Source: a virus. Taken from it: a DNA stretch of 42,094 nucleotides. Below are positions 4,547 to 42,094 of the stretch, one piece after another (the first letter of the stretch is position 1; each line of letters begins with the position of its first letter). The position numbers were made by a program, and so were the translations under genes. The notes beneath the pieces were generated by a model that saw only the letters and a list, made by a program, of their open reading frames with translations, was not told the DNA's origin and did not search any database. The DNA lies in the IMG/VR virus record IMGVR_UViG_3300042691_019997, positions 1 through 42,094 of that record, one strand, 5' to 3'.

Positions 4547-7500
4547 TCCGCGTTATTGCTTTCTTCCGCACGCTGCCGGCGGCGGCGCGACTGCGTAGAC
4601 TGCCTGCGTAGCTCTTGAGGCATCAGGTCCGTTAGGTCGGCATTTTGACGATCCGCGAGAAGGCGGCGGCGTGCCTCTGCCCAATTGTCCCGCACGTGGA
4701 TGGGCGACAAGATCGCGGAAGCCTTCATGCGCGCCTCAATCTCGGCAGCTACTTCAGGCGAGAGTGACCGGATAGCAGAGAGCCGCGCAGCCGTGTCCGT
4801 AACCTGCATCTCACGATAGCCAGGCATTCCAGCAATCGTCAGGCCGTTCTTGATCTCTTCGGAGGCCCATGAGTTGATCGTGTTGGTGATGCCGCGCGCC
4901 ACAGCGGGGTCAACTCGTATGATCTCACGCTCCTGCCCCCTTGCCGCCGAGCGGTCCTGCACGACGAGCCGGTTGAGGGATATGTCGCGGGTGACGGCCG
5001 ATGCCAACTTTGCGAACGATTCCGCGTGTTCAAGCGGGTGGAGGTTCCGGTTGCCCGTTGAGAAGGAATGGCCGGAGACGGTCATCAGTGTTTTGCCGAT
5101 ATCATCCTGCGCGGCATAGCCTTGCTCGGCGGCTTCCCAGCGCCCCAGCCGGATTGCTTCTGCGTAGCTGTTAGCCGGCGCTCGATATTTGGCCTCATCG
5201 GCGCTCATGAGACGGTTCAACTCATTCCGCATCTGGCCGACGCCGCGCTGGCGACGGATGAGCGCGCCGAAGAACATCTTCGTAAAGGCGTCACCGGGCG
5301 TCATGTTGGGGTTATTGCCGAGCGTTGCGGTCAGGGCGTCGTTCACATCTCGCCCAGCCGTGCCGCCTAGTCCGTTGATGACGTGATCGACAATCAGCGG
5401 GGAAAGATTGAACTGCTGCCCCATCCGGCGCGCGAATTCCGAGGTGTTGCCCGAGAACTGCTCGGCGCGAGTTAATTTCCGCAGCTGCTGCGGGATGATT
5501 GGCGAGGGGGCGCTGCCCTCAAAACCCATGCGCTGCCCAAGCTGCACTTCGTAACCCGTCTTGAAGAAGGGGTTTGACCCAAGGAAGTCCTGAAGCCCAC
5601 CGAATTGCCGGGGGATAAAGCCCTCTCGCAAGGCCCCAAAGACACGATGGGCGCCTTCGGGGTCGGCGCGGCTGATGCCTTCCGCCGCCCCCTCCATGGC
5701 TGCGATGAGCGCGCCGGGGAGATCGAAGGGCTTGGGGATGGAAATGTATTGATCGTCCTCGCCATTCTGGCCCTCTCGCAAGGGAATGATCCAGTAGCGC
5801 TTCCGCATGTACTCGGTCGTGCGCTGATAGATGGGGTCATCTTTGACCGCCGCCCACCAGCCAAGGCTTGCAGTCACCATGGCCGCGATCACGCCCCAGT
5901 TGATCGCAGCGTCACGCAGGGCGGACTTATACTCGCCGTCCAACTTGTCGTATCCGCCGCGCTTATAGGCCTGAACGGCAGCGGCCAGCGGGTCACCGAT
6001 CAGGTTCTTATTCGCGCGGGCGGTGCCCTGAATTCCGGGGTTCAGAAAGGGGAGGAAGCGGGTGAAGCCTTCCATGGCCGCGCCGCGCCGGTCGTAATCG
6101 AGGACATCCCGCCCCTCGAATACGGCGGCATTGAACGCCGTATAGTGGTCAAGCCCCTGCTTCCGAAGGTGGTTGTAGACGATCTTGGTTTGGCCGACAC
6201 GCCCGACCGTTTCCGTGGCTTCCAGCAGTTTGAAGTAGCTCTTGACGCCGTTCTGCACGCTTTCAAGCGCCGCCTTTGGCCACGATGTCGGGTGCGCCAG
6301 CGTCTGCCCAAACTCTCGCACGCGCTCGCCTGTCGCGCCGAGAACGGCGGGGATGTAGGTTCCGGGCTGCCGCAAGTCGCCGCCCGCGTCCGCCAGGCGC
6401 TGCCCCACGCCAGCGGCGCCAATATCGATTGCCGATAGGCCGCCGGTCTTTTCCAGATCGCGAAGCGCCGAGGATACGACACCGCCCCGGATGCCTCCTG
6501 AGGCCGCATAGGCTTTCGCAAATTCCTTGTCCGCGATGCTCGTCCAAATTCCGGCCGCGAGTGGAGCAAGGGGAATACGGCCAAGCAGTCCCGTATGGCG
6601 GGCCATTGGAGCGCGCGTAATCGCGTCCATGAGCAGGTTCTTCAGGGCGAATTGGGGCGCGTTCGTGATGAACTGTGAGAACATGGCGTTGCCAGTCCCC
6701 ATGATCTTTTTCCAGAAGTCCCTATCTGCCTCAGTCATATTGGCGATGAGGTCGTAAAAGCCCCTCGTCATCTCGTCATTGGCGAGCTTATACGCTTGGC
6801 GCTGGCCGCCCTCCCACACAAACAGGATGTTCTCGCCGGTATCCGCCTTGATGTCCGTGCTGCGGAAAACCCGCGCCGTCGCGTCTTCACCGACGAATTC
6901 TTCAATCGTGCGGAGGATGGTTTCCGTATCCGCCTTATCCAGCCCACTCTCGCGCGCCTTGCTTCGCACCGCCTCCAGGATATCGACCGACTGGCCCTTC
7001 ATTTGGCTGTTGGGAACGCGCTCCCAGAACTTGCCAGCAAATTCGCCGCCAGCCTCAGCAACCTTGGCATAAGCCTTGTTGATCTCGTTCAACGCGATGA
7101 CCCGCTCAAACTGGGCGGTGTTGAGCATCGTCTGTTGAATGGGGTCGAGGATATCGCGCGTCGACCCCTTGGCCGCTCGGATCGAGTTGGGGGCGTTCAC
7201 GCCACCGCCAGAACCGCCGGGCTCTCGATCGTCGAAGTAGCGGTTCAGAGGAACGTAATCCTCGCCCCGACCAGCGACCGCCTCGAACATCTCCTTGTCA
7301 ATGATCCCGGCGTCAAAGAGCCGGCGCCATTGAGCGCGGTTGTAGGCGAATATTTTGTCAGCAGCGGATTTGAACGTCGGGTTGGCCGCCTCGAAATCTG
7401 CGATAGCCCGCTCGACTTCTGACATCGACATACGCACGGGAGCCTTGGGCACATCGCCCGCAATGAAGCGGAGATACCGGCCGCGAGCGGCGCGCATCGT

Positions 7501-25083: not shown

Positions 25084-25247
25084 CACTCTGCGCTCATGAT
25101 CTCGTCGGGTCGGGCAATGGCTTGCGGCTCAATGCCCAACCCGTTCATTCGGACTGCCAGTGCGAAACTCTCCCGCTCGGCCTTCGTCATTCCCCGCATT
25201 TCCTTTCGGAGGCGGCGATACTGGGGCCAGATCGGGAAACGGGTCAC
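25083..25247 (-). CDS. Unrecognised small protein before terS
   Basis: Predicted 54-residue basic protein (start VTRFPIWPQYRRLRKEMRGM read as Met at the GTG). The GTG at 25247 overlaps the previous stop (GTGA) and the stop overlaps the terS ATG, so it appears translationally coupled to both. A longer reading from 25307 is possible. No function is recognised. Confidence 0.55.
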   Translation of the reverse strand: MTRFPIWPQYRRLRKEMRGMTKAERESFALAVRMNGLGIEPQAIARPDEIMSAE

Positions 25248-25813
25248 GCCACGGACACGTTCAGGATGTCGAGGCGGCACGAGTTGCTCCCCGAAGTCGT
25301 GGACCACTGGCCAGAAACCGCCATGACGGTCGCGGCGGTCGTGTCGAGGGTCGTGGACGCAAGGATGTCGTCCTTGATCGTCATGGTCCCTTCAGCAGCC
25401 GGGATGCTCTTGAACGTGCCGACGCCAACCACCGTGCCCGAAGAACCGATGGTGCGGACCACCAGCTCGTATTCGCCGGTGAACACGTCGTTGTTGGCAA
25501 CGTCAGTCGCCGCCATGGAGATCAGGGCCGTACCGGACAAGCCACCCAGATATGCCTTGATGGTCAGGGTGTCGGTGGAGTTGGTCGCGGTCGCAATGCC
25601 CTGAAAGCGCATTCGGATGATGGAGCCGACTTCCAGCGTGTTCGCCGGGATCGTCACAGAACCGAGAGAGGTTTCCGTCGAGGAGGCCGTGAGAGCCGTG
25701 CCGGCAGCAACCAGACCAGCCTTGAACAGCGGAACGCGCCAGTCGTCCTTGCCTAGAATGCGACCAGCAGCAGACAGGCCCAGGTCGGGGCCGTAGAGGG
25801 GAACGAGTGCCAT
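25244..25813 (-). CDS. Probable virion structural protein
   Basis: Predicted 189-residue beta-rich Thr/Ala/Gly protein (ALVPLYGPDLGLSAAG, LGSVTIPANTLEVGSIIRMRFQG, GEYELVVRTIGSSGTVVG). This is the style of phage head-fibre or decoration proteins. AAGGAGG lies 6 nt before ATG 25813, a strong site that predicts high output, and the in-frame reading upstream is not needed. It is located ahead of the terminase genes. Confidence 0.72.
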   Translation of the reverse strand: MALVPLYGPDLGLSAAGRILGKDDWRVPLFKAGLVAAGTALTASSTETSLGSVTIPANTLEVGSIIRMRFQGIATATNSTDTLTIKAYLGGLSGTALISMAATDVANNDVFTGEYELVVRTIGSSGTVVGVGTFKSIPAAEGTMTIKDDILASTTLDTTAATVMAVSGQWSTTSGSNSCRLDILNVSVA

Positions 25814-26367: not shown

Positions 26368-26375
26368 GAAGAAGG
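26368..26375. repeat. Target site duplication, left copy
   Basis: GAAGAAGG abuts the outer end of the left inverted repeat; the identical 8 bases abut the right repeat at 28977-28984. Eight base pairs is the duplication length expected of IS1595-family insertions. Confidence 0.92.
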
Positions 26376-26399
26376 GGCAATTATCACCTTGACGTAGTA
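26376..26399 (+). repeat. Left terminal inverted repeat of IS1595 element
   Basis: Starts GGCAATTATCACCTTGAC. It matches the complement of 28953-28976 at 22 of 24 positions. The -35 box of the transposase promoter lies within it. Confidence 0.92.
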
Positions 26400-26416
26400 C
26401 GCTCTACCTGTATGAT
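26389..26416 (+). promoter_or_regulatory. Transposase promoter
   Basis: TTGACG (26389-26394), 16-nt spacer, TATGAT (26411-26416), close to sigma-70 consensus, starting within the left inverted repeat. The transposase ATG is 24 nt downstream of the -10 box. Confidence 0.75.
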
Positions 26417-26439
26417 GGGCTCAATACCGGAGCCTATCC

Positions 26440-27357
26440 ATGTCGAACCTGTCCAACCCGATCTTTCACGACGAGACCAAAGCCCGCGAGTGGCTTGAAG
26501 CACGGGTTTGGCCGAACGGCCCGGTGTGCCCTCACTGCAAAGAGGCCAACCGCGCCACCCTCATGAAGGGCAAGAGCCACCGTCCCGGTCTCTACCAGTG
26601 CAATGCCTGCCGCGAGCCGTTCACGGTCACCGTGGGGACGCTCTATGAGCGCTCCAAGGTCCCGCTGCACACTTGGCTGGCCGTGACCCACCTCATGATG
26701 GCGTCGAAGAAGGGCATGAGCGCCCTCCAGATCAGCCGCATGATCGGCAAGCCCTACAAGACCGTGTGGTTCCTCTGCCACCGTATCCGCGAGAGCCTTC
26801 GCGAGGTCCACACCGGCCCCCTCGGTGGTGGCGGCAAGACCGTGGAAGCGGACGAGACGTGGGTTGGCGGCAAGGCCAAGAACCGCGCTACTCGCGAGCC
26901 CGCTCCCAAGAAGCCCGTGCTGTCCCTCATTGAGCGCGACGGCAAGGTCCGCTCGTTCCATATCCCGTCCGTGACCGCCGCCACACTGGCCCCGATCATT
27001 CAGGCCAATGTCGATAAGGCGTCAGCCCTCATGACGGACGAGAGCACGGTCTATCCGGGCATCGGCAAGAAGTTCGCCAGCCACGGCACCGTGAACCACT
27101 CAGCAAACGAGTATGCTCGCCTCGGTGGCTTCATCCACATCAACACTGCCGAGAGCTATTTCAGCCTCGTGAAGCGCGGCATCACGGGTTCGTTCCACCA
27201 CGTCTCGGAAGCCCATCTGCACCGCTATCTCGCGGAGTTCGATTTCCGCTACAACAACCGCACCGTGACCGACTACGAGCGCTTCTCAGCCTCGATCCCC
27301 GGCATCGTGGGTAAGCGTCTCACCTATCGGCGGCCTGACGCGCACGGGCGCGGTTGA
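26440..27357 (+). CDS. IS1595-family transposase (ISXO2-like)
   Basis: Predicted 305-residue DDE-type recombinase. An N-terminal zinc ribbon has CPHC (30-33) and CNAC (54-57). An HTH-like region follows (about 90-115: KKGMSALQISRMIGKPYKTVW). The catalytic core shows EADETWVGG (D138), LMTDEST (D200) and HINTAESYF (N235/E238), as expected of ISXO2-like transposases. It ends with the usual GKRLTYRR. GGAG is 7 nt before the ATG. Full length with all expected residues, so probably active. Base composition resembles the phage, with strong C/G third positions. Confidence 0.95.
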   Translation: MSNLSNPIFHDETKAREWLEARVWPNGPVCPHCKEANRATLMKGKSHRPGLYQCNACREPFTVTVGTLYERSKVPLHTWLAVTHLMMASKKGMSALQISRMIGKPYKTVWFLCHRIRESLREVHTGPLGGGGKTVEADETWVGGKAKNRATREPAPKKPVLSLIERDGKVRSFHIPSVTAATLAPIIQANVDKASALMTDESTVYPGIGKKFASHGTVNHSANEYARLGGFIHINTAESYFSLVKRGITGSFHHVSEAHLHRYLAEFDFRYNNRTVTDYERFSASIPGIVGKRLTYRRPDAHGRG

Positions 27358-27500
27358 TACGACCCTGCGACGTTTCTTCCGCAAGGCCGGCATCCGCCTG
27401 ATCCGCCGCAAGCTCAGGTATCCCCGGACAAAGTGACGGTTGCACCGCGCACACCTTTCGCGCGCGCGGAGAATCGGCTCTGATGCTCAGTTGACGAAAC

Positions 27501-27533
27501 GGAGAGACCGCCAGTTTGCCGCTGGCGGCCTCC
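27501..27533. other. Hairpin in gap downstream of transposase
   Basis: CCGCCAG and CTGGCGG around a 7-nt loop, extended by outer GGAG and CTCC, then GATTTCTCC. It is the main structure in the 292-nt gene-free stretch between transposase and the first passenger, and a plausible weak plus-strand terminator for the transposase. Confidence 0.45.
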
Positions 27534-27589
27534 GATTTCTCCGCGCATTCCCTTGGCCGGGCTGCGGAGCATCATGGGGTAGTTAGCAC

Positions 27590-27605
27590 CCGGAGGAGAC
27601 TCCGG
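27590..27605. other. Short hairpin with GNRA-type loop ahead of passenger gene
   Basis: CCGGAG, loop GAGA, CTCCGG: a perfect 6-bp stem with a GNRA tetraloop on the plus strand, 45 nt before the first passenger gene. It may be a leader or transcript-stability element. Confidence 0.4.
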
Positions 27606-27649
27606 AATCACTCCATCGGTCAAGCCCGGTCTTCGTATAGGAGGCCTGA

Positions 27650-27952
27650 TTGGGCATCTTCATCGTGACGTTCCGCATCTATGACGATGCGGGCTATGCC
27701 GACCGCTACCAGTCCGTCGTGGAGCAAATCAAAAAGTGTTGCCACGACGGGATCTTCTGGGACCAGACGACCTCGTTCTTCGTGTTGAAGAACCCGTCTA
27801 CGGCAGAAAAGATCGCAGAGTATATCGACGCCAACTCGACATTCAGTCCGACGCGCGATCTGCTCGTCGTGATCGCCCTGTCGCAGAAGGATCATGCAGT
27901 GATCGGCAACATCACCGATACCGACCTGCATAAGCTCATGGCGCTGCGGTAA
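27650..27952 (+). CDS. Passenger gene 1: small ferredoxin-like (Cas2/SinR-like) protein
   Basis: Predicted 100-residue protein starting at TTG 27650 with AGGAGG 5 nt upstream. It has a beta strand FIVTFRIYDD, a helix (RYQSVVEQIKKCC), then FWDQTTSFFVLKN, a second helix (AEKIAEYIDANS) and the strand DLLVVIALS. This beta-alpha-beta-beta-alpha-beta order with a W-x-x-T-T-S-F motif matches small standalone proteins related in fold to Cas2/VapD, often labelled SinR-like. No CRISPR array or other cas gene is present. Nuclease activity cannot be judged from sequence. The fold assignment is inference. Confidence 0.65.
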   Translation: MGIFIVTFRIYDDAGYADRYQSVVEQIKKCCHDGIFWDQTTSFFVLKNPSTAEKIAEYIDANSTFSPTRDLLVVIALSQKDHAVIGNITDTDLHKLMALR

Positions 27953-27958
27953 AGAAGT

Positions 27959-28018
27959 GCTGCCGGACATCGATCGGCACGCGCATCACTCGCGCGAACC
28001 AGAGAACCGTCCGGCAGC
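27959..28018. repeat. Inverted repeat between convergent passenger genes
   Basis: GCTGCCGGAC (27959-27968) and GTCCGGCAGC (28009-28018) are perfect 10-bp complements separated by 40 nt. They lie in the intergenic gap between convergent genes (100-residue gene on plus, 52-residue gene on minus). A bidirectional termination or recombination role is possible. Confidence 0.5.
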
Positions 28019-28026
28019 GCATTCGC

Positions 28027-28185
28027 TTAACGAGGGTCACGCTCTCGCTCCTTCGGCTTCGTCGCGGGCTTATGCTTCGGCCCGCTCTTGATTGCAGCAT
28101 CAACCGCGCGCTCGAAACGGTCCCACCCATCGGGATGCTCGCTGTCCGGCTCGCTCGGCTTCACGTCCTGCTTAGGTGACGGCAT
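28027..28185 (-). CDS. Passenger gene 2: small charged protein, 52 residues
   Basis: Product begins MPSPKQDVKPSEPDSEHPDGWDRFERA and ends in a Lys/Arg/Glu-rich tail, with disordered ends around a short WDRFERAVDAAIK helix. The WxRFExxVD core is common in small alphaproteobacterial proteins of unknown role. GAGG lies about 10 nt upstream. Its start codon shares bases with that of the divergent 242-residue gene (CATGG at 28183-28187), so the two starts interlock. It could act as an antitoxin-like partner; that is speculation. Confidence 0.55.
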   Translation of the reverse strand: MPSPKQDVKPSEPDSEHPDGWDRFERAVDAAIKSGPKHKPATKPKERERDPR

Positions 28186-28912
28186 GGCAAACGACCTCAA
28201 ACACGTTCACGCCAAGCTAGCTTGGGCTAAAGCCCAACTGCCAATCTTGGGGGCTGAAACCCAGTTCTTCATTGACTCCAAACCGTACCGAATCTGGAAG
28301 GAGGTCAATGAGGAACGCGGGGGCTTTGACTACAAGATCAAATACACCCAACCCGTCCCCGACAGCATCCTGATTTCCGCGAGCAATCTCGCGCATCAGA
28401 TCCGTTCGAGCCTTGACCAAATGGCGGCCACGCTCGCCGTAAGGAATGGAGCTACCAACACGAAAGACGTTCACTTTCCCATCAGTCACGACCGAGACTC
28501 GTTCTTCGACGGCAAGAGGGCCGGCGTCAAAAAAATAGCTCGCCTGTCCGCTGTCGACCGGCAGATCATCATCGACCTCAAGCCCTATTTCGGAGGCAAC
28601 GACCTCCTGTATGCCCTTCATCAAATGAGCATTACGGACAAGCACAATCGGCCTCTGCGAGCCGCTGGTTTCACAGCGTCCGTTGCGGTGGATGAGATGA
28701 TAGGCGACCTGATGATAGGACCCGACATCGGGACGTGGAGCGCGCTGGATGACGAGCGCACGGTGCTCTGGACCACAAGCCCTTATCTCAAAGCGTATGT
28801 GACGACGCATGTATGCATCGAGGAGATTGGGCAGCGCCCAGGAATAGCGCTTGCTCCAATGTTCGGTGAGTTCATTGGCGCGGTGAAGTCGATTGTAGCC
28901 CTGTTCGATTGA
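28184..28912 (+). CDS. Passenger gene 3: 242-residue helical protein of unknown function
   Basis: Predicted protein with a largely helical N-terminal half (SNLAHQIRSSLDQMAATLAVRNG), an HFPISHDRDSFF segment, a helix with VDRQIIIDLKPYFGGNDLLYALHQM, the motif ITDKHNRPL, and a beta-rich C-terminal half. The LDxxA...DKHxR pattern is seen in a widespread family of uncharacterised proteins with a HEPN-like helical core, but the canonical R-x(4-6)-H ribonuclease motif is not evident. ATG 28184 has AGGTGA upstream. Cargo position in an IS inside a prophage makes a host-defence or stability role worth testing. Confidence 0.7.
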   Translation: MANDLKHVHAKLAWAKAQLPILGAETQFFIDSKPYRIWKEVNEERGGFDYKIKYTQPVPDSILISASNLAHQIRSSLDQMAATLAVRNGATNTKDVHFPISHDRDSFFDGKRAGVKKIARLSAVDRQIIIDLKPYFGGNDLLYALHQMSITDKHNRPLRAAGFTASVAVDEMIGDLMIGPDIGTWSALDDERTVLWTTSPYLKAYVTTHVCIEEIGQRPGIALAPMFGEFIGAVKSIVALFD

Positions 28913-28952
28913 ATGAGTGCCGGCCTGTCCCGATTGTTCTACCACTAGCGCC

Positions 28953-28976
28953 TACTATGTCAAAGTGATAATTGCC
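28953..28976 (-). repeat. Right terminal inverted repeat of IS1595 element
   Basis: Plus strand ends GTCAAAGTGATAATTGCC. Its complement matches the left repeat at 22 of 24 positions. It contains an inward TTGACA, mirroring the left promoter -35 box. Confidence 0.92.
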
Positions 28977-28984
28977 GAAGAAGG
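28977..28984. repeat. Target site duplication, right copy
   Basis: GAAGAAGG, identical to 26368-26375. Confidence 0.92.
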
Positions 28985-29009
28985 GCTCCCGACCGAAGCC
29001 GAGAGCCCT
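28982..29009 (-). terminator. Strong TTCG hairpin at head of late operon
   Basis: Minus strand: AGGGCTCTCGGC, loop TTCG, GTCGGGAGCCCT (12 bp, with G-T pairs), then TTCTTC. If the IS is removed the tract continues as TTCTTCATTTC into GGAGG of the gene at 26351, exactly the hairpin/T-rich/ribosome-site layout seen at 4071-4101 and 17331-17363. It is a probable terminator or antitermination target for the late operon. Confidence 0.65.
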
Positions 29010-29041
29010 AGCACTGGTGCGACTTACGCCCTCACAGAGGG

Positions 29042-29373
29042 GCCGATGATCGGCTCGATTGGGCCAACGCCTTGCGGCTGTCCAGTCCATCCCAAATTTG
29101 CGAGGTGCAGGTGCGAACCCTGCGCTTATCCACCTTCGCGGGCGTGTGACCTTGCGGTCGCCCCTAACGCTAGTGGCCTCATTCTCAACACAGCCCCGCA
29201 TCGTCGGGTCGCTGACAGGTTCCTTGCCAGTGCAACCGGTGTTCGATGCCCGGTCGGAACCCGTCGCTGTGTATGCTGTCAGTCGGGCCGGTGGTCGTTT
29301 GGTCCCCGCTTATACCCACCGAACATTGCTAGCGACGGGTCGCCCGACTGATCTCTGCCCGGACGCAAGTCCG
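29042..29373. other. Gene-free, highly structured region; candidate noncoding RNA
   Basis: This holds most of the 434-nt gap between the replication module and the late-operon hairpin. Readings through it on either strand look non-coding. It contains many complementary segments: GCCG/CGGC (29042-29054); GCC/GGC with GCAA loop on minus (29069-29078); GCAGG/CCTGC (29107-29123); GACC/GGTC with GCAA loop on minus (29148-29159); ACCGG/CCGGT inside GGTTCC/GGAACC (29218-29261); ACCCGTCGCT with AGCGACGGGT (29259-29268, 29331-29340); TCAGTCGGGC with GCCCGACTGA (29279-29288, 29342-29351); CGGTGG/CCACCG (29289-29321); and CGGAC/GTCCG (29360-29373). The two 10-bp pairs interleave, as in a pseudoknot. Could be a regulatory RNA, packaging site or origin. 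Confidence 0.45.
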
Positions 29374-29389
29374 AGCCTATTGAAATGAC

Positions 29390-29418
29390 ACAGAACACCA
29401 TCCCTAGTGATTTGTCAA
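29390..29418 (-). promoter_or_regulatory. Candidate late promoter
   Basis: Minus strand TTGACA (29413-29418, perfect -35), 17-nt spacer, TTCTGT (weak -10). It directs transcription into the structured region and the late operon. The poor -10 could mean an activator is needed. Confidence 0.35.
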
Positions 29419-41567: not shown

Positions 41568-41761
41568 CGAGACGCGCCGCGCTCTTCAGGCAGACGGATC
41601 TCGCACGCGCCATTCGCACCGCGAAGGCCGAGGGTATGCCGCTGGCTGGCGTTCGCATCAGTCCAGAGGGCGAAATCTTTGTCGCCTTCGTCAATGCCGA
41701 GCCGAAGCCGGCAACATCATTCGATGAATGGAAAGCCAGCCGTGACGCGCGTAAGGCTTAA
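41564..41761 (+). CDS. Small protein immediately upstream of integrase
   Basis: Predicted 65 residues, basic start TRRAALFRQTDLARAIRTAKAEG and VRISPEGEIFVAFV. GTG start overlaps the previous stop. Its last 20 nt overlap the integrase start. Size and position would suit an excisionase-like DNA-binding protein, and similar small genes often precede rhizobial prophage integrases, but no HTH is clear. Confidence 0.6.
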   Translation: MTRRAALFRQTDLARAIRTAKAEGMPLAGVRISPEGEIFVAFVNAEPKPATSFDEWKASRDARKA

Positions 41762-42094
41762 GGGCCTCAACAAGAAGACCGTGAAGCTCGCAAGCGGCGT
41801 GACCGTCACCTATTGGTATGCGTGGAAGGGCGGTCCCAGGTTGCCCGGCAAGCCCGGCTCCAACGAGTTTATGGCCGCTTACAACAAGGCGGTATCGGCG
41901 CGCACCGACAAGAGCGCAGGCACGCTGCAAAGCCTTCTGGACGCATTCCAGAAGAGCCGCGACTTCACCGGATTAAGGGATCGGACCCGCCTCGACTACA
42001 CCGCCAAGATCAAGGCCATCGAAACCGAGTTCAGCGACTTCCCGCTGGCAGCCCTTGGGGACAAGCGCACCCGCCACGAGTTCATGGCATGGCG
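41742..42094 (+). CDS. int: Tyrosine-type integrase, N-terminal part (cut by window end)
   Basis: Open to the right edge with no stop: 117 residues visible. GTG start 41742 with GGAAAG upstream. N-terminal beta segment (RVRLKGLNKKTVKLASGVTVTYWYAWKGG) as in arm-binding/N-terminal domains of phage integrases, then a core-binding-type helical region (TLQSLLDAFQKSRDFTGLRDRTRLDYTAKIKAIETEF). The catalytic R-H-R-Y domain is outside the window. It ends the rightward operon, so it lies under repressor control. An att site would be expected downstream, out of view. Confidence 0.85.
   Translation, partial: MTRVRLKGLNKKTVKLASGVTVTYWYAWKGGPRLPGKPGSNEFMAAYNKAVSARTDKSAGTLQSLLDAFQKSRDFTGLRDRTRLDYTAKIKAIETEFSDFPLAALGDKRTRHEFMAW

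Follow-up and report, generated by a model that had tools for sequence, protein, structure and literature searches.

Which of the genes behind a transposase are passengers, and which belong to the transposon itself? This question is raised by a 2601-bp IS1595-family element at positions 26376-28976 of the virus record IMGVR_UViG_3300042691_019997, whose 42,094 bp are called the window here. Besides its transposase the element encodes proteins of 100, 52 and 242 residues, and it is bounded by terminal inverted repeats (TIRs) and target-site duplications. Its features are as follows, each with its basis in brackets.

26368..26375, no strand: left target-site duplication GAAGAAGG (sequence reading; one copy at the empty site of contigs L121 and L122)
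26376..26406, plus strand: left TIR, 31 nt (inverted-repeat search)
26440..27357, plus strand: IS1595-family transposase, 305 aa (Pfam, NCBIfam)
27480..27650, plus strand: strongly structured stretch between the transposase and the 100-aa gene (fold -75.5 kcal/mol, z -3.1)
27650..27952, plus strand: cargo gene 1, 100 aa, TTG start behind AGGAGG (AlphaFold model, structure match, relatives)
27961..28018, no strand: hairpin TGCCGGAC...GTCCGGCA between the convergent 100-aa and 52-aa genes (fold -39.5 kcal/mol for 27950-28030)
28027..28185, minus strand: small gene of the constant part, encoding a basic protein of 52 aa (alignment; homologues in 81 of 85 elements)
28184..28912, plus strand: cargo gene 2, 242 aa, uncharacterised, its start overlapping that of the 52-aa gene in CATG (relatives)
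28946..28976, minus strand: right TIR (inverted-repeat search)
28977..28984, no strand: right target-site duplication GAAGAAGG (sequence reading; overlaps the base of a phage hairpin, AGGGCTC...GAGCCCT)

An insertion in a temperate phage

The two TIR arms of 31 nt pair at 27 of 31 positions (87% complementary) and form the longest inverted repeat in 3.4 kb. They are real, and longer than the 22 of 24 matches that an earlier sequence-only reading had given them; the perfect 8-bp duplication that it reported can be read directly, and both copies of GAAGAAGG are identical. The corresponding empty site was found in the related phage contigs L121 and L122. Both encode the protein next to the insertion (25244-25813 in the window) at 97% identity and then run on through the site as GCCTCC-AAATGA-GAAGGGCTCC; the element is missing, and the target is present once, one base shorter. 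Because L121 and L122 show this uninterrupted site with one target copy, the stretch 26376-28976 is a genuine insertion into a temperate phage. Phage relatives with a single target copy were just what the sequence-only reading had suggested looking for, and the contrary case that it named, an uninterrupted phage holding the passenger genes natively, is not what they show: homologues of the transposase and of the 100-aa and 242-aa proteins were absent from L121 and L122 in tblastn searches.

The phage itself carries genes for terminase, capsid, tail and replication, a CI/Cro-like HTH pair and NinB, a temperate-phage set that fits the earlier placement of the element inside a prophage. Judging from the relatives of the element, the host of the phage is probably alphaproteobacterial. 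The element adjoins a hairpin that resembles a terminator and lies between the phage genes for replication and those for packaging; this hairpin (AGGGCTC...GAGCCCT) is present at the empty site of L121 too. Since the insertion lies at the hairpin base in an intergenic stretch, it probably came at little cost to the phage. No Rfam family was found in the window and no tRNA by ARAGORN; tRNA-like sequences occur in L121 (6150-6330) at the counterpart of window positions 29000-29400. At 41679-42092 an ORF that runs off the right end of the window resembles the N-terminus of a tyrosine recombinase, with no Pfam match. Another related phage (L016/L128, IMGVR_UViG_3300023266_000001) carries a different IS1595 element of 2193 bp, with the duplication TTTCCCGG, a HEPN gene and a small gene, about 2 kb from its homologue of window gene 25244-25813.

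The transposase is intact at 26440-27357 and fills the first third of the element, as had been read. It matches DDE_Tnp_IS1595 (1.4e-35, cut-off passed) and Zn_ribbon_IS1595 (PF12760, 3.9e-11) in Pfam, and IS1595 in NCBIfam (4e-56). Its N-terminal zinc ribbon (C30/C33/C54/C57) is conserved in relatives, and D138, D200, E238 and K245, kept in at least 94% of 85 relatives, are by their motif the presumed catalytic residues. With its DDE domain, zinc ribbon, D-D-E plus K residues and GG-ended TIRs with an 8-bp duplication, the element has the features of the IS1595 family, and domains, TIRs and duplication all agree with the claim of an IS1595-family unit with exact ends and passengers. The left TIR includes the -35-like TTGACG of a possible transposase promoter (26389-26416), a single promoter-like match where 0.7 would be expected by chance. 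The structured stretch at 27480-27650 is not conserved in relatives.

The small gene as a constant part of the element

Transposase searches yielded 37 viral and 80 genomic loci, the genomes being mostly Alphaproteobacteria, and ends could be resolved for 85 distinct elements of 1860-4627 bp (median 2652). An 8-bp duplication was seen in 77 of 118 loci when small end offsets were allowed; 42 loci, the window included, combine GG/CC ends with an exact 8-bp duplication. Behind the transposase, all 85 resolved elements have one or more additional ORFs of at least 70 aa, in a count that comes from greedy ORF calling and in which some ORFs may not be genes. The nearest relatives, L041 and L042 (72-73% at the nucleotide level), share only three islands of nucleotide similarity with the window: the transposase, some 50 nt within the 52-aa gene, and the right end. 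A DNA search with the whole element gave no match in phages and transposase-level matches only in plasmids, and no resolvase was seen in these IS1595 elements. One relative (L030/L191, IMGVR_UViG_3300016667_000580) is an internally deleted copy of 1192 bp that retains both inverted repeats but has its transposase truncated.

The gene that stays when all else changes is the small one. Profiles of its family, a basic ORF of 40-70 residues, detected it in 81 of the 85 elements whatever their cargo; this figure is partly circular, the profiles having been built from the same elements, which does not apply to the flank control, with no match in 272 kb of flanking DNA, or to independent genome searches with the small-gene and HEPN profiles, in which the small gene again stood beside related transposases. 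The family comprises several diverged classes, whose shared descent is indicated more by pattern and position than by sequence. In the window the 52-aa protein shows the motif WxRFERAVDxxxKSxPxH followed by a K/P-rich tail. Codon differences in the conserved core (124, 160 and 352 at positions 1, 2 and 3) are distributed as expected of a translated gene. On the transposase tree the strand of the small gene changes only 5 times, compared with 25 in shuffles, and we therefore rejected the 52-aa gene as ordinary cargo. Because homologues occur in 81 of 85 elements irrespective of cargo and their strand follows the transposase tree, we count the gene with the constant part. Hence the earlier view of three passenger genes holds for two of them, the 100-aa and 242-aa genes, which behave as exchangeable cargo, and fails for the third. 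Most likely the tiny protein binds nucleic acid and helps or regulates the transposon.

The position of the small gene depends on its strand. In 31 elements it lies on the minus strand, and 18 of these 31 share a CATG head to head with the next plus-strand gene. At this junction in the window the start codons of the 52-aa and 242-aa genes overlap, and each has its Shine-Dalgarno-like site inside the other gene. A HEPN-like protein occurs in 20 of the 31 minus-strand elements, with RxxxxH invariant in all 20, and it is the coupled plus-strand gene in most of the CATG cases. Plus-strand small genes either lie within 4 nt of the transposase end or overlap it (12 elements), or they follow a PIN or other cargo gene. 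In the window, the hairpin at 27961-28018 is a possible bidirectional terminator.

This arrangement also invites the chief rival explanation, which we regard as rather unlikely: the small gene could be the antitoxin or regulator partner of the neighbouring effector, so that the IS carries a toxin-antitoxin-like pair. The head-to-head start in 18 of 31 minus-strand cases would suit such a pairing. So would the restriction of HEPN to minus-strand small genes (20/20, Fisher 1.8e-11) and of PIN and DUF3800 to plus-strand ones, although this association could stem from shared ancestry on the transposase tree. In L185 a small gene-HEPN pair has no close transposase relative in the 12.6 kb examined, the nearest transposase being about 3 kb off and only 34% identical to the clade; however, another pair without a transposase, in L188, retains a short transposase remnant. 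Against the pairing stands that the effector class changes (PIN, HEPN, DUF3800, others) while the small gene persists with a strand that follows the transposase tree, and that in 12 elements the gene lies no more than 4 nt from the transposase end or overlaps it. The L185 locus (6039-6762), where these two genes start head to head, may be a stand-alone pair or a remnant.

Exchangeable cargo

For the 100-aa protein an AlphaFold model (pLDDT 87.8) predicts a Cas2/GhoS-type ferredoxin-like fold. Cas2 chains fill the top rows of a VIA-align comparison (Z 8.9 to type I-C Cas2, rmsd 2.4 over 73 residues), and the predicted fold thus agrees with the Cas2-like small protein of the sequence-only reading; sequence identity to Cas2 chains is mostly 8-18%, and no Cas2 family matched at E <= 1 in Pfam or NCBIfam. 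An aspartate near the end of strand 1, D12, is invariant, and by its modelled fold the protein is a putative nuclease. Relatives are found in elements L086 and L092, there with other partners. A single-sequence search of viral contigs gave no close relatives, and a family profile search returned only an already known member.

The 242-aa protein has a conserved Asp78 and His154 and an R-x3-D motif; it has no match in Pfam or PHROG and no significant one in NCBIfam, and its structure model is too poor for use (pLDDT 53). Single-sequence searches of viral and genome contigs found no close relatives, and PDB sequence searches with profiles of both cargo proteins gave nothing convincing. Relatives do occur in elements L066, L067 and L104, and a profile search of 385 alphaproteobacterial genomes added 5 more, of which 3 adjoin a related transposase and a small gene. 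The protein fills the CATG-coupled slot that a HEPN-like protein holds in most relatives of the same layout, and only by this analogy of position might it be an effector. A diverged HEPN was considered and dropped (hhalign probability 0.3% against 20 HEPN cargo proteins), the protein having R-SSLD-Q where HEPN has RxxxxH. An unrelated minus-strand ORF of 242 codons at 28217-28945 was set aside; it has no Pfam match, and relatives were found for the plus-strand ORF.

Across the clade, with its relatives in soil bacteria, cargo is replaced freely. On the transposase tree PIN (12 elements, 12 changes) and DUF3800 (9 elements, 9 changes) are scattered like shuffled labels, as are the families of the 100-aa protein (3 elements, 3 changes) and the 242-aa protein (4 elements, 4 changes), in both cases with small numbers. 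HEPN follows the tree a little (20 elements, 12 changes versus 18 in shuffles). Most of 137 cargo proteins belong to no recognised family; Pfam assigned 14 to DUF3800 and 11 to PIN, and further domains were NYN, Mrr, GIY-YIG, DNA methylases, Vsr, GmrSD, putAbiC, SocA-Panacea, IrrE and Schlafen. Among 136 flanking control proteins the top families are mainly housekeeping ones (response regulators, Mg-chelatase, transporters etc.). PADLOC matched both the cargo of relatives and the flanking controls (197 versus 54 families, many of the models being methyltransferases), and we do not lean on its counts because matches occur in the control set too.

The recognisable cassette genes of the clade, mostly PIN, HEPN, DUF3800, restriction-modification and AbiC-like, suggest that the element is most likely a mobile conflict module. 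A defence or stability module had been proposed before, and the cargo families of relatives make this the probable class of cargo. It is improbable, in our view, that the cargo is selfish or neutral baggage gained by chance on an element that spreads by transposition alone. Free replacement and the many proteins that match no family are what baggage would look like, but in addition to its transposase every one of the 85 resolved elements has another ORF of 70 aa or more, a small number of nuclease-like families that are missing from the top flanking-gene families makes up most of the cargo that can be recognised, and a cargo-poor copy was seen once, in the 1192-bp element with the truncated transposase. 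That these are ordinary phage accessory genes between coincidental repeats has virtually no chance of being right: a relative of the 100-aa protein does adjoin phage-type genes (holin/NinG) on a P. aeruginosa plasmid, but the empty site of L121 and L122, with one target copy and no homologue of transposase or cargo, contradicts it.

A probable unit transposon and its counterparts

Taken together, we consider it likely that the element is a unit transposon, with a core of TIRs, transposase and small gene around an exchangeable conflict-type cassette, which acts as a mobile conflict module and has entered a temperate phage. Its constant part is made up of the DDE transposase, the tiny basic protein and the inverted repeats at both ends. 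The transposase would pair the ends and carry out the insertion, which is itself evident from the 8-bp duplication and the empty site. Between the constant parts lies the exchangeable cassette, here the Cas2-fold protein and the 242-residue protein, which may shield host or lysogen from other phages or make its own loss costly, while the tiny protein would help or regulate the transposon. More tentatively, and with some doubt on our side, this whole clade of IS1595 elements might be a vehicle specialised in exchanging small conflict genes of nuclease type, in which the constant 40-70-aa protein helps transposition or licenses unrelated effectors and the CATG junction is a slot for swapping.

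If the unit-transposon reading is true, short members of a common transposon family supply defence or toxin genes not yet characterised, which can be gathered by simply reading the stretch between transposase and right repeat. Such transposons could also hop into temperate phages, which may carry the cargo genes between hosts. The constant small gene poses a clear question as well: does it act in transposition, or is it a single partner compatible with many effectors?

Several known systems resemble parts of this element. With Cas2/GhoS-type ferredoxin-like RNases the 100-aa protein shares its predicted fold and the invariant D12 near the end of strand 1; unlike them it stands outside the Cas2 profile families, with identities of mostly 8-18%. 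Tn7-like transposons have different transposition genes and are larger elements. Nearly all of them carry cargo, enriched for defence and toxin-antitoxin genes (PMC8649781), and in this near-universal cargo of defence/TA type they are alike. Here, by comparison, the cargo is one to few genes in 2-4.6 kb. Among Tn3 transposons toxin-antitoxin pairs were found in 39 of 190 elements, with PIN/HEPN toxins, repeated independent acquisition and a fixed position beside the transposition genes (PMC7157771), all of which recalls the present elements. Unlike in Tn3, all resolved elements here have extra genes, and one small family is the constant companion; a resolvase was not seen.

Passengers have precedents in the IS1595 family, ISNwi1 and ISNha5 being groups that carry them. 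In size and passengers our element presumably agrees with the ISNwi1 group. It resembles these groups in its DDE_Tnp_IS1595 domain with zinc ribbon, GG-ended TIRs and 8-bp duplication, and, as we take it, in extra genes and size. No description of a constant small gene or of such a cargo range in IS1595 elements was found in the literature searched, which did not extend to key IS papers. The IS1595 family, with groups including ISNwi1 and ISNha5, has been described as having a single transposase gene (PMC8101967), whereas the elements studied here add a constant gene of 40-70 aa and swapped nuclease-type cargo.
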